From Verrucomicrobiota bacterium (GTDB taxonomy: Bacteria > Verrucomicrobiota > Verrucomicrobiia > Chthoniobacterales > UBA10450), in NCBI GenBank assembly GCA_003218135.1, contig QHNQ01000020.1, positions 1 through 39,102 on the forward strand: a stretch of 39,102 nucleotides of DNA, given 5' to 3'. The translations under genes and the position numbers were made by a program. Shown here piece by piece: positions 22,160 to 26,111 of the stretch. The notes beneath the pieces are model-generated. The model saw nothing but the letters and a program-made list of their open reading frames with translations, was not told where the DNA came from and did not search any database. Each line of letters begins with the position of its first letter. The first letter of the stretch is position 1.

Positions 22160-22186
22160 GCGCAATTCAGGTTAACGGTCTTTGTG

Positions 22187-23950
22187 ATGACCAAGGAGGA
22201 AATCGCGGGAGTGCTGGAGAAGATTGCGACGCTGCTCGAGCTGAAGAATGAGAATCCGTTTAAGATCCGGGCTTACACTAATGCAGCGCGCGCGATTGAA
22301 ACCTTTGGCGGCAACATCGCGAATTTTCAGGACGAAGAAGCGCTGGCGAAAATTCCAGGAATCGGAAAAAGCATCGCAGAGAAGATCAAAGAGCTGGCCG
22401 CGACCGGGTCGCTGAAATACTTCGAGGAATTGAGCGCCGAATTCCCGCCCGGCATCATGGAACTGTTTTCATTGTCGGGCCTTGGCGCCAAAAAAATTAA
22501 GGGTCTCTACGATCAACTCGGGATCAGTTCGATCGAGCAGCTGCAAAAGGCGTGCGAAGACGGGCGTGTTGCTGAATTACCCGGCTTTGGGGAGACCACG
22601 CAGCAAAAGCTCTGCGACGCGATCGCGAAACGCGCATCGCATGCCGGTTCGTTTCAGTTCGGGCAAGTCGCTGCTGAAGCGGAAACGTTGCGTTCTGACC
22701 TGGCGGCGCACAGCGACGCTTCGCAGGTGGATATCGCCGGGAGCTATCGGCGACGAAAGGAGATTTTGCACGATCTCGATCTGTTGGTCGCCACAAAAAA
22801 TCCGGCAGCGATCATGCAATTCTTCGTTTCGCATCCGCTGGTCGAATCGACCATCGCGCACGGGCCGACGAAATCGAGCATGCGGCTTCGCTCTGGAGTG
22901 CAGTGTGATCTGCGCGTCGTGAGCACTGCGGAATACCCTTTCGCGCTTGCTTATTTCACCGGAAACAAGGAACACAACATCGAGCTGCGCAGCCGCGCGC
23001 TTCAGCGAGGCTGGACGCTCAACGAATACCGGCTTGCCCAGGTTCCGGTCGATCCAAAAGCAAAAAAGAAAAGACCGGTGAAAAAAATTCCAGAGGTGCA
23101 TGATGAAGCCGAGTTGTATCGCGCGGTTGATCTCGATTTTATCGCGCCGGAGCTACGGGAAAACTGGGGCGAATTCGAAGCTGCTGTGAAACATTCTCTG
23201 CCGAAGCTGATCGAGAAGGAAAACTTGCGGGGCACGTTTCATTGTCACACCACTGCGAGTGACGGACACAATTCCATCGAAGAAATGGCGGCTGCCGCGC
23301 AAGAACTGGGGCTGGAATATCTCGGCATCGCCGATCACAGCCGCAGCTCAATTCAGGCACACGGAATCGATGAACCGAAACTCCGCGCACAGATCGGCAC
23401 GATTAGAAAGTTGAACAAAAAACTGCGCGGCTTTCGCATCTTCGCAGGTATCGAATGCGACATTTTGCGTGACGGCTCGCTCGATTTGCCAGACGAAGTC
23501 CTCTCACAACTTGATTATGTTATTGTGTCCGTTCATTCCGTCTTCAATTTGAACGAACAGGCAATGACGCAGCGCGTCATTCGCGCGATGGAGAACCCGT
23601 TGGTCACGATGTTGGCGCATCCGACCGGCCGGCTGCTGCTGAAACGCGAGCCGTATCAGATCGACATCCCGGCAATTCTCGATGCAGCAGCGCGCACCGG
23701 CACGTGGATTGAGCTCAACTCTGCACCAAAGCGGCTCGATCTGGACTGGCGCTGGTGGCCATTAGCGAAACAGAAAGGCGTCAAATGCGTCATCAACCCC
23801 GACGCTCATCGCACCGAGCGTTTGCAGGATTTGTGGTTTGGAATTGGCATCGCGCGGAAAGGGTGGCTCACCAAAGAAGACGTTGTGAATTGCTTACCAC
23901 TTGGAAAAATCGAGGCTGCATTACGGGTCAAACGTCAAAGGGTGGAGTAA
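22187..23950 (+). CDS. polX: DNA polymerase X with C-terminal PHP exonuclease domain
   Basis: The usual bacterial PolX order in 587 aa. Helix-hairpin-helix DNA-binding units occupy about 1-150 (LAKIPGIGKSIAEKIKEL and AELPGFGETTQQKL). The polymerase palm, about 170-320, has GSYRRRKEILHDLDLLV with the Asp pair and the third Asp in GVQCDLRVV. The PHP domain, about 345-575, has FHCHTTASDGHN, ADHSRSS, GIECDI, VSVHS, AHPTGRL and NPDAHRT as metal-binding motifs. All catalytic residues appear intact. It fills short gaps in base-excision repair and has Mn-dependent 3'-5' exonuclease activity. ATG 22187 is chosen; a GTG precedes it immediately. Confidence 0.95.
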   Translation: MTKEEIAGVLEKIATLLELKNENPFKIRAYTNAARAIETFGGNIANFQDEEALAKIPGIGKSIAEKIKELAATGSLKYFEELSAEFPPGIMELFSLSGLGAKKIKGLYDQLGISSIEQLQKACEDGRVAELPGFGETTQQKLCDAIAKRASHAGSFQFGQVAAEAETLRSDLAAHSDASQVDIAGSYRRRKEILHDLDLLVATKNPAAIMQFFVSHPLVESTIAHGPTKSSMRLRSGVQCDLRVVSTAEYPFALAYFTGNKEHNIELRSRALQRGWTLNEYRLAQVPVDPKAKKKRPVKKIPEVHDEAELYRAVDLDFIAPELRENWGEFEAAVKHSLPKLIEKENLRGTFHCHTTASDGHNSIEEMAAAAQELGLEYLGIADHSRSSIQAHGIDEPKLRAQIGTIRKLNKKLRGFRIFAGIECDILRDGSLDLPDEVLSQLDYVIVSVHSVFNLNEQAMTQRVIRAMENPLVTMLAHPTGRLLLKREPYQIDIPAILDAAARTGTWIELNSAPKRLDLDWRWWPLAKQKGVKCVINPDAHRTERLQDLWFGIGIARKGWLTKEDVVNCLPLGKIEAALRVKRQRVE

Positions 23951-23973: not shown

Positions 23974-24807
23974 TTACTCCATTGCTCCAATACTTCTTTC
24001 ATCCAGTCGCTCCCGCTGCGGCATAAACATGGTGAGACATTTGCACGCGCCGCCGGCTTTGATGAATTCGCTCATCGGCAATTCGTGGCAACGATAGCCG
24101 CGCTCCTGCAGTGTAATTACGAGCCGCGGCGCGCCCTGGGGCAAGACGATATCCCCCTCGATAACGACGGCGTTACATGAAAAGTGCATCGCCTCGGCCG
24201 GCGCGACATCGATCAAATCGGTCACGTGTTCCCGGATTGCGCGCTGCCCGTATTCATCGAAGGCATTGGGGAACCAAAATGCGCCGCCGTCAGGCAGCGG
24301 GCAAAAGCAGGTATCAAGGTGGTAGAAGCGCGCATCGACTAATTCTACGGAGACAGCGAGACAACCGAGCATTTCTGCTATGGCCCCGTGCGATTGGATG
24401 TCGGAGCGAAATTTGTAGCCGCAAAAGAGCACGTCGCCGCCGAAGAGCGCATCGCCTTCGCCTTCGAAGTAAAGATTTTCCGGCAACCAGGACACTTCGT
24501 AGCCATGTTGTTTCATCCATTCGGCAAAGAACGGCTGTTCGCCGGCGCGTTCTTTGTGGCGGAAATTACTGGGGATGAATTTGCGGCCGACGGTCAGTCC
24601 GGCGTTGGCGGTGAAAACCATGTCGGGAAGCCCTGGCTGTGGCGTAACCAAATGAACCTTGCAATCCAATTTTGAAAGAGTCGCGTGCAATTGTTTCCAT
24701 TGCTGTTGAACAACCGGCGCCTCGGCGGCGTGGGCGACGCTCATCCATGGATTGATCTCGTACTCGATGCCGTAGTAATCGGGCGGACAAAGAAGCAGCT
24801 CGCGCAT
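23974..24807 (-). CDS. Amidinotransferase/arginine dihydrolase-like protein (guanidine-modifying fold), 277 aa
   Basis: The GME-superfamily fold is shown by MRELLLCPPDYYGIEYEINP, PGLPDMVFTANAGLTVG (Asn near 68), ENLYFEGEGDAL (about 110-121), the catalytic His in FYHLDTCFCPLP (about 163) and the nucleophile Cys in GGACKCLTMF (about 257). Arginine deiminases usually have Asp where this protein has FTANAG; Asn there fits the ArgZ/AgrE arginine dihydrolase type (arginine to ornithine, CO2 and two NH3). The gene upstream on the same strand is the other half of AgrE, strengthening that reading. ATG 24807 was chosen because it starts at the family N-terminus; the longer frame crosses the word repeat. 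DDAH-like activity is the alternative. Confidence 0.82.
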   Translation of the reverse strand: MRELLLCPPDYYGIEYEINPWMSVAHAAEAPVVQQQWKQLHATLSKLDCKVHLVTPQPGLPDMVFTANAGLTVGRKFIPSNFRHKERAGEQPFFAEWMKQHGYEVSWLPENLYFEGEGDALFGGDVLFCGYKFRSDIQSHGAIAEMLGCLAVSVELVDARFYHLDTCFCPLPDGGAFWFPNAFDEYGQRAIREHVTDLIDVAPAEAMHFSCNAVVIEGDIVLPQGAPRLVITLQERGYRCHELPMSEFIKAGGACKCLTMFMPQRERLDERSIGAME

Positions 24808-24814
24808 TTGAAGG

Positions 24815-24896
24815 AGTTGATAGTTCCCGGTTGATAGTTGATGGACGAAAGCCAAACGATGGACTGCTATCAACTATCAACCATCAACTAACAACT
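24815..24896. repeat. Word-built inverted repeat between the two arginine-pathway genes
   Basis: GGTTGATAGTTGAT (24829-24842) is the exact reverse complement of ATCAACTATCAACC (24869-24882), a 14-bp stem with a 26-base loop. Further partial copies of GTTGATAG and TCAACTA flank both arms. It occupies nearly the whole gap between the co-directional COG1915-type and dihydrolase-like genes, so it would be a large hairpin in a shared mRNA. Confidence 0.75.
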
Positions 24897-26111
24897 TCAT
24901 GACGCGAGACGATCGGCGAGTTCGCGAAGAAAAGGTTCCACATCCGTGACCAGGCCGATTGATTGCAACGGCTGATGCCCGACCGCGCGCTCTACTGCCG
25001 AAGGATCGATATCAACGCACACCGTTTTCACCGTTGGCGCGAGCATGCTGGCCACGGCGAGCGAATGCTGAATGTTCGCTAAGAGCAGGGCGTGCGTCAC
25101 GTCGGCGAGTTTTTTGCGCATCATCTTTTGGGCCTCGATCGCATCTGTCGTTACACCAGGAATCGGTCCCTCGTCGCGGATCGAACCCGTCAGCACGATA
25201 TCGATGTTGTGATGGACGCAGGCGTGCATGATGCCACTGGTCAGGATCTTTTTCTCAACAGCGCTGGCGATTCCTCCCGCTTGGCGAATTGCATTGACCG
25301 CTCGGATCAGGTTCTCACGTCCTCCGCGCGCGAAGGCCAGATCGGGATTCATTCCCAGCGAAGTGCCGAACAATGCGCGTTCCACGTCATAAGCGGCAAA
25401 CGAATTTCCGGCAAAGAGCCGATCGACATAACGCGATTCGATGAGGCGCACCAAATGCTGACCGGCGCCGGTTCGGACGATCGCAGGGCCGACGACCACG
25501 GCAATTTTTCCTTTCGCTGCATGCGCACGATACAATTCGCCGGCCAGCTCGCGAATGATGGCCGATTTCGGTTCGTCGGCATCGACGATTGTGTTGATGA
25601 ACTGAAAAACATCCGTGCCCGTGGTTGCGCGCTGCACCGGTACAACGCGCACACCCTGGTGACCGATCACGATCTCGTCGCCTTTGCGAACGTCGAAGAA
25701 CTTAACAGCTCTGGCGGTACCTCTTTTTCGATCGACCGCTATAGCGCTGTCCATCATGGCTGGCTGCACTTCGATTTCCTTGCCGTCGATGCGGACGAAC
25801 GTTTGCTGATTCGTCGTCACGTAGAAATCGGGCGGGAAAACTCCGTCGGCAGAGGCGGCAGCGATTTGCGCATTTGCGCGCTCCAAAACTTCGGCGCCCT
25901 GCTGGCGAAGACGTAGGATCAATTCGTCCAGCGCCTCGCCTGTTTCGGCGGACACCTCAATTCGGGCAAAGCTCTGATCAGCCCGTTTCTTGCCGATGTT
26001 GATCTCAGTGATCTTAAAGTTGGCCCCGTGGGTCAGAATTTGATCCAGCACTTTTGGCAGGATGAGCGAATCAATAATATGCCCGCGCAGCTGGATCGTC
26101 TCGGAAAACAC
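24897..26111 (-). CDS. TIGR00300/COG1915 family protein (LOR/SDH bifunctional enzyme-like; ornithine cyclodeaminase type)
   Basis: A full-length TIGR00300/COG1915 protein (404 aa). The N-terminal region SETIQLRGHIIDSLILPKVL, then the LOR-type beta domain with DFYVTTNQQTFVRIDGKEIE, lead to a C-terminal nucleotide-binding domain with VVVGPAIVRTGAGQHLVRLI, FGTSLGMNPDLA, and HHNIDIVLTGSIRDEGPIPG. Archaeal and cyanobacterial members convert ornithine to proline plus NH3 using NAD; in cyanobacterial AgrE this domain is fused behind an arginine dihydrolase domain. Here the two are separate neighbouring genes in reverse order of transcription (this one first). Start is ATG 26111. Function is inferred from family knowledge. 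Confidence 0.87.
   Translation of the reverse strand: MFSETIQLRGHIIDSLILPKVLDQILTHGANFKITEINIGKKRADQSFARIEVSAETGEALDELILRLRQQGAEVLERANAQIAAASADGVFPPDFYVTTNQQTFVRIDGKEIEVQPAMMDSAIAVDRKRGTARAVKFFDVRKGDEIVIGHQGVRVVPVQRATTGTDVFQFINTIVDADEPKSAIIRELAGELYRAHAAKGKIAVVVGPAIVRTGAGQHLVRLIESRYVDRLFAGNSFAAYDVERALFGTSLGMNPDLAFARGGRENLIRAVNAIRQAGGIASAVEKKILTSGIMHACVHHNIDIVLTGSIRDEGPIPGVTTDAIEAQKMMRKKLADVTHALLLANIQHSLAVASMLAPTVKTVCVDIDPSAVERAVGHQPLQSIGLVTDVEPFLRELADRLAS

Follow-up and report, generated by a model that had tools for sequence, protein, structure and literature searches.

The window analyzed here, a stretch of 39,102 nucleotides from a member of the Verrucomicrobiota (order Chthoniobacterales) belonging to a lineage of soil bacteria, carries a conserved two-gene operon that, judged by homology, is the split counterpart of the cyanobacterial AgrE/ArgZ proteins. 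On balance we consider it probable that the dihydrolase-like protein of the pair (DH) makes ornithine, that the ornithine cyclodeaminase (OCD) domain of its partner lost or changed its function after synthesis of the nickel-pincer nucleotide (NPN) cofactor was lost, and that the small LOR domain was kept as a partner or regulator of DH. The pairing itself is real, correctly placed and far beyond chance, with two adjacent same-strand open reading frames of the families named in an earlier note on this DNA found where that note had located them:

24897-26111, minus strand: COG1915/TIGR00300 gene with LOR/SDH and OCD domains; 404 amino acids, GTG start
25884-26111, minus strand: LOR/SDH domain (PF04455), residues 1-76 of the COG1915 protein
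24900-25883, minus strand: OCD catalytic part (PF21571 and PF21570), residues 77-404; 26 of 82 superfamily-invariant positions changed
24808-24896, minus strand: intergenic stretch between the COG1915 and DH genes; 89 bp, short GTTGATAGTTGATGG-type repeats
23974-24807, minus strand: arginine dihydrolase-like (DH) gene, the ArgZ/AgrE N-terminal domain as a stand-alone protein; 277 amino acids, ATG start
24604-24606 and 24037-24039, minus strand: codons of DH active-site residues N68 and C257; the third residue is H163

The best start for DH is the ATG at 24807, as nearly all relatives begin at the corresponding methionine; a TTG start at 24873, the one in the list of open reading frames, is disfavored because its upstream codons run into the intergenic repeats. 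The gap between the genes, which holds several short GTTGATAGTTGATGG-like copies, is longer than in most relatives, where it measures 1-35 bp. On the opposite strand a PolX-type gene (22184-23950) faces the operon, and such a gene adjoins it in about 38 related loci.

Both proteins find their counterparts among structures of the cyanobacterial enzymes (ArgZ, PDB 6juy; AgrE, PDB 6lrf). When compared with AgrE (Anabaena Alr4995) and ArgZ (Synechocystis Sll1336), which are described by NF052231, DH is 47% identical to ArgZ and has the same Asn/His/Cys active site, while LOR-OCD is about 37% identical to AgrE, and its LOR domain is placed relative to OCD as in that protein. The window, however, encodes LOR-OCD and then DH as two proteins, separated by stop codons and the intergenic gap, whereas AgrE is one DH-LOR-OCD chain; the single-chain arrangement that defines NF052231 is therefore absent. 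A further difference from AgrE/ArgZ is that the window OCD is without most of the superfamily-invariant histidines and that none of larC, larE and larA was found in the window genome.

The distribution of the pair is concentrated in the window's own family. DH and OCD occurred in only 6 and 5 of 337 genomes drawn evenly across the phylum, and are nearly universal within the family (73 and 72 of 83 genomes, respectively). Both genes share one locus in approximately 60 family genomes, with the OCD/LOR gene always first, on the same strand and 1-179 bp before DH, so that the conservation in relatives proposed as a test in the earlier note is borne out. Outside the family the same operon order was found nearby in 26 of 61 loci, including those of Planctomycetota, Nitrospirota, Deltaproteobacteria and Armatimonadetes. 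A scan of named genomes returned 80 diverse loci and no fusion, although their ranking by similarity to a dihydrolase from the Verrucomicrobiota means that they are not an unbiased census. Among the genomes searched, the fused form appeared only in two members of another family of the phylum (G194 and G211), in the order DH-LOR-OCD. As far as sequence comparison can tell, the pair represents a split AgrE that occurs widely, and the two-gene arrangement is a widespread form in itself. The earlier description of a split AgrE/ArgZ pair thus stands for the homology and conservation of both halves, while the order of the domains, LOR-OCD followed by DH, departs from that of AgrE.

NCBIfam places DH between two families and below the cut-offs of both: a full-length match to the arginine dihydrolase profile NF052232 reached 288 bits where the cut-off is 450, and the next-best match, to the dimethylargininase profile NF045659, scored 247 bits against a cut-off of 300. 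The NF052232 cut-off was also missed by all stand-alone relatives tested, including those from Planctomycetota and Nitrospirota. Despite the difference in score, DH shares with the NF052232 domain its active-site residues, and the active site appears intact, as N68, H163 and C257 align with chain positions 73, 170 and 266 of 6juy, which we take to be ArgZ N71, H168 and C264 on the assumption that the chain carries a two-residue offset from the published numbering. This alignment confirms residue 68 and Cys257 as the DH residues to compare with AgrE. All 64 family members compared have the Asn/His/Cys set, as do nearly all of the 61 relatives from outside the family. The PDB title of 6lrh describes an AgrE C264A mutant with arginine, and 6juz has Ser at the Asn position, showing that C264 and the Asn position have both been targets of published mutagenesis.

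The earlier note had read Asn in place of the deiminase Asp as a mark of the dihydrolase. Asn68 is indeed present, but actinobacterial homologs annotated as dimethylargininase carry the same residue, which consequently does not separate the two activities and is ruled out as proof of dihydrolase activity. This shared Asn, together with scores below both the arginine dihydrolase and the Mtb-type dimethylargininase cut-offs, leaves room for DH to be a dimethylargininase (DDAH) or another guanidine hydrolase, an alternative that we regard as unlikely: identity falls from 47% for ArgZ to 36-37% for two actinobacterial proteins annotated as dimethylargininase, the family DHs break 2-5 of 62 ArgZ-clade invariants as opposed to 11-12 in the annotated dimethylargininases, and the operon partner is the same as in AgrE. 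Arginine dihydrolase is most likely the function of DH, which, given its family membership and intact active site, would convert arginine to ornithine, CO2 and two NH3 with neither urea nor citrulline being formed.

In most bacteria with the operon, the partner of DH would be an ornithine cyclodeaminase, probably NPN-dependent. The window COG1915 protein aligns over its full length with the TIGR00300 OCD (described by NCBIfam as NPN-dependent) and archaeal 3c2q, shares their LOR and Rossmann architecture and also matches PF04455 and PF21570/PF21571; it differs in falling just under the TIGR00300 equivalog cut-off of 410.8 with 401-402 bits. Scored in one run, the window protein reached 402, those of loci L101 and L104 reached 413 and 484, and outside relatives reached 529-562. 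We defined 82 invariants of the OCD catalytic domain from 36 outside proteins, all from larC-positive genomes, together with AgrE, archaeal 3c2q, G211 and G194. The number of invariants broken was 3-4 in genus g182, 6-17 in the type B group that has no lar genes, and 22-30 in the window clade, the window protein itself having lost 26. Among the six invariant histidines only H349 is kept, the others being changed as H213R, H241Y, H265R, H267N and H268L. Replacement of H241 by Gln in g181, Arg in g183 and Tyr in others, and of H213 by Gln in g181 and Arg in the window clade, indicates that the invariant histidines were lost more than once. The changed positions are probably catalytic or cofactor positions.

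The OCD domain of the window clade is nevertheless no decaying pseudogene, a reading that a dN/dS of 0.08 and an intact predicted fold matching AgrE (Z 38) rule out. Purifying selection and fold together indicate that the domain still does something, possibly as an OCD whose residues have changed. The OCD part (24900-25883) also resembles the deoxyhypusine synthase fold (VIA Z of approximately 16-19 at 9-13% identity); deoxyhypusine synthase is another NAD-dependent enzyme, with a polyamine substrate. In two g177 genomes (G359 and G360, loci L076 and L084) a window-type (type A) OCD lies beside a g177-type DH, which looks like the outcome of an exchange of the OCD module.

The cofactor genes were sought in the family, the genomes of which are mostly incomplete metagenome assemblies. 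NCBIfam describes TIGR00300 as NPN-dependent, and no paper linking the two was found in the literature collection searched. Approximately 15% of surveyed genomes, including many cyanobacteria, have larB, larC and larE without larA, and unknown NPN proteins have been inferred from such larA-less genomes (PMC11796402). In the window's family, larC was found in 5 of 83 genomes and larE scored over cut-off in 4 of 32 genomes tested, all of them in genus g182. No larC was detected in the window genome (assembly 87% complete) or in 77 other family genomes, no larE in the window genome, G013 (100% complete), G166 or G358 (98%), and no larA (PF09861) in any of the 32 family genomes tested, g182 included. 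The g182 genomes (G374-G378, larC loci L045-L049) have larC in five of five and larE in four of five, and since larA is missing there, OCD is the only recognized candidate NPN user in this genus.

Whether OCD and NPN synthesis are linked more generally was assessed in 50 DH-bearing genomes outside the family, where 36 had both OCD and larC, 5 OCD only, 3 larC only and 6 neither (Fisher p = 0.0018; larC in 36 of the 41 OCD genomes), with the proviso that LarA-like genes are present in most Planctomycetota of this set and confound the co-occurrence there. Five outside OCDs from genomes with no detected larC break 0-5 of the 82 invariants. Four outside genomes (G431, G441, G443 and G465) encode a well-conserved OCD with neither larC nor larE detected, and may be incomplete assemblies or may have an NPN-free OCD. 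Within the family, G373, which is sister to g182 on the DH tree (support 0.998), is without larC and larE and has 15 invariants broken; genus g177 has no larC and still retains the majority of invariants (9 fixed changes), and G337 has only 6 broken. The association between lar loss and OCD decay rests on few independent contrasts, the number of independent lar losses being small. In two Omnitrophota genomes (G454, locus L156; G462, locus L166) larC and larE are present and neither OCD nor LarA was detected, and these may have another NPN user.

In 11 genomes of three genera the COG1915 protein is reduced to residues 1 to approximately 76, encoded by a small gene of about 80 codons that immediately precedes DH (loci L050-L060; genomes G339-G343, G166, G347-G350 and G352). 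This mini LOR gene occurs in all five g175 genomes with matches, in five of g176 and in g3, and no OCD fragment was found elsewhere in the 11 genomes. The encoded protein matches PF04455 (Saccharop_dh_N, the LOR/SDH domain) alone, and is predicted to fold as a beta-alpha-beta-beta-alpha-beta sandwich resembling AgrE residues 283-361 (Z 12.4) and 3mgj (Z 11.9). It is thus that domain, but encoded by a gene of its own next to a dihydrolase and joined to neither OCD nor LKR/SDH. Its pairwise dN/dS of approximately 0.07, equal to that of DH, identifies a working gene, and its occurrence in 11 genomes of three genera, ending at the domain boundary and under this selection, rules out an assembly artifact. 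None of the seven LOR-domain invariants is broken in any of the proteins. On trees built with FastTree, the DH sequences scatter the mini-LOR genomes, and g176 contains a mixture of full-length and mini forms; the LOR sequences, by contrast, group the mini forms together. Either repeated truncation or module exchange is a possible origin. As the constant partner of DH in the family, LOR suggests itself for an assembly or regulatory role, and its ferredoxin/ACT-like fold would fit a domain that senses a ligand, although a shared fold shows no function.

These observations bear on whether the pair could act as AgrE does. The earlier note proposed that the two enzymes turn arginine into proline, which for the window genome is doubtful in light of the changed OCD invariants, the five altered histidines, the score under the TIGR00300 cut-off and the absence of larC, larE and larA from this genome and its close relatives. 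For both enzymes to be active, OCD would have to use NAD(H) as its cofactor and to tolerate the residue changes. The crystal structures contain NAD+ and no NPN, the title of 6lrg being that of an AgrE ternary complex with ornithine and NAD+, and the AgrE-like predicted fold, the purifying selection on the OCD domain and the tight operon are likewise as expected of a working pair. An active split AgrE nonetheless seems improbable to us given the invariants and histidines lost, the low profile score and the 11 relatives that dropped the OCD domain and kept LOR and DH. Nor is OCD the family's only route to proline: the window genome has proC, and with it another route, and in 46 of 83 family genomes proC scores over cut-off.

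A further possibility, which overlaps with our preferred explanation and which we hold as serious if somewhat short of probable, is that OCD was repurposed, either as an NPN-independent enzyme acting on another substrate or as a pseudoenzyme subunit controlling DH. The window clade has a low dN/dS although catalytic-looking residues were lost, OCD is retained next to DH throughout the window's genus, and the type A module replaced the resident OCD in two g177 genomes, all of which is consistent with such a role. Against it, relatives do without the domain, and no positive evidence points to a new substrate.

In the explanation that we prefer, NPN synthesis would have been lost throughout the window's Chthoniobacterales family with the exception of one genus, after which OCD would have diverged at otherwise invariant positions, as in the window, or been deleted to leave the ferredoxin-like LOR. 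As LOR was kept under purifying selection next to DH, its lasting job is probably the assembly or regulation of DH, an interaction that we infer from this pattern. The pathway in the window genome most likely stops at ornithine, which can re-enter arginine synthesis, while proline would come from ProC.

The family might be viewed as a natural experiment in which OCD would have decayed or been deleted where NPN synthesis was lost, with LOR and DH being kept. It offers a comparative test, with material ready for experiments, between g182, which has larC, larE and an intact OCD but no larA, its lar-less sisters with a damaged OCD, and the LOR-only relatives. We tentatively propose, while rating the combined claim at somewhat less than an even chance, that LOR acts as an independent subunit regulating or assembling DH and that the COG1915 OCD is the missing non-LarA NPN user. 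As to which protein uses NPN in larA-less genomes, NCBIfam already names TIGR00300. If true, this proposal would account for possible failures of OCD assays in hosts that have no lar genes, and would single out LOR as a small candidate for regulating an enzyme that breaks down arginine without releasing urea.
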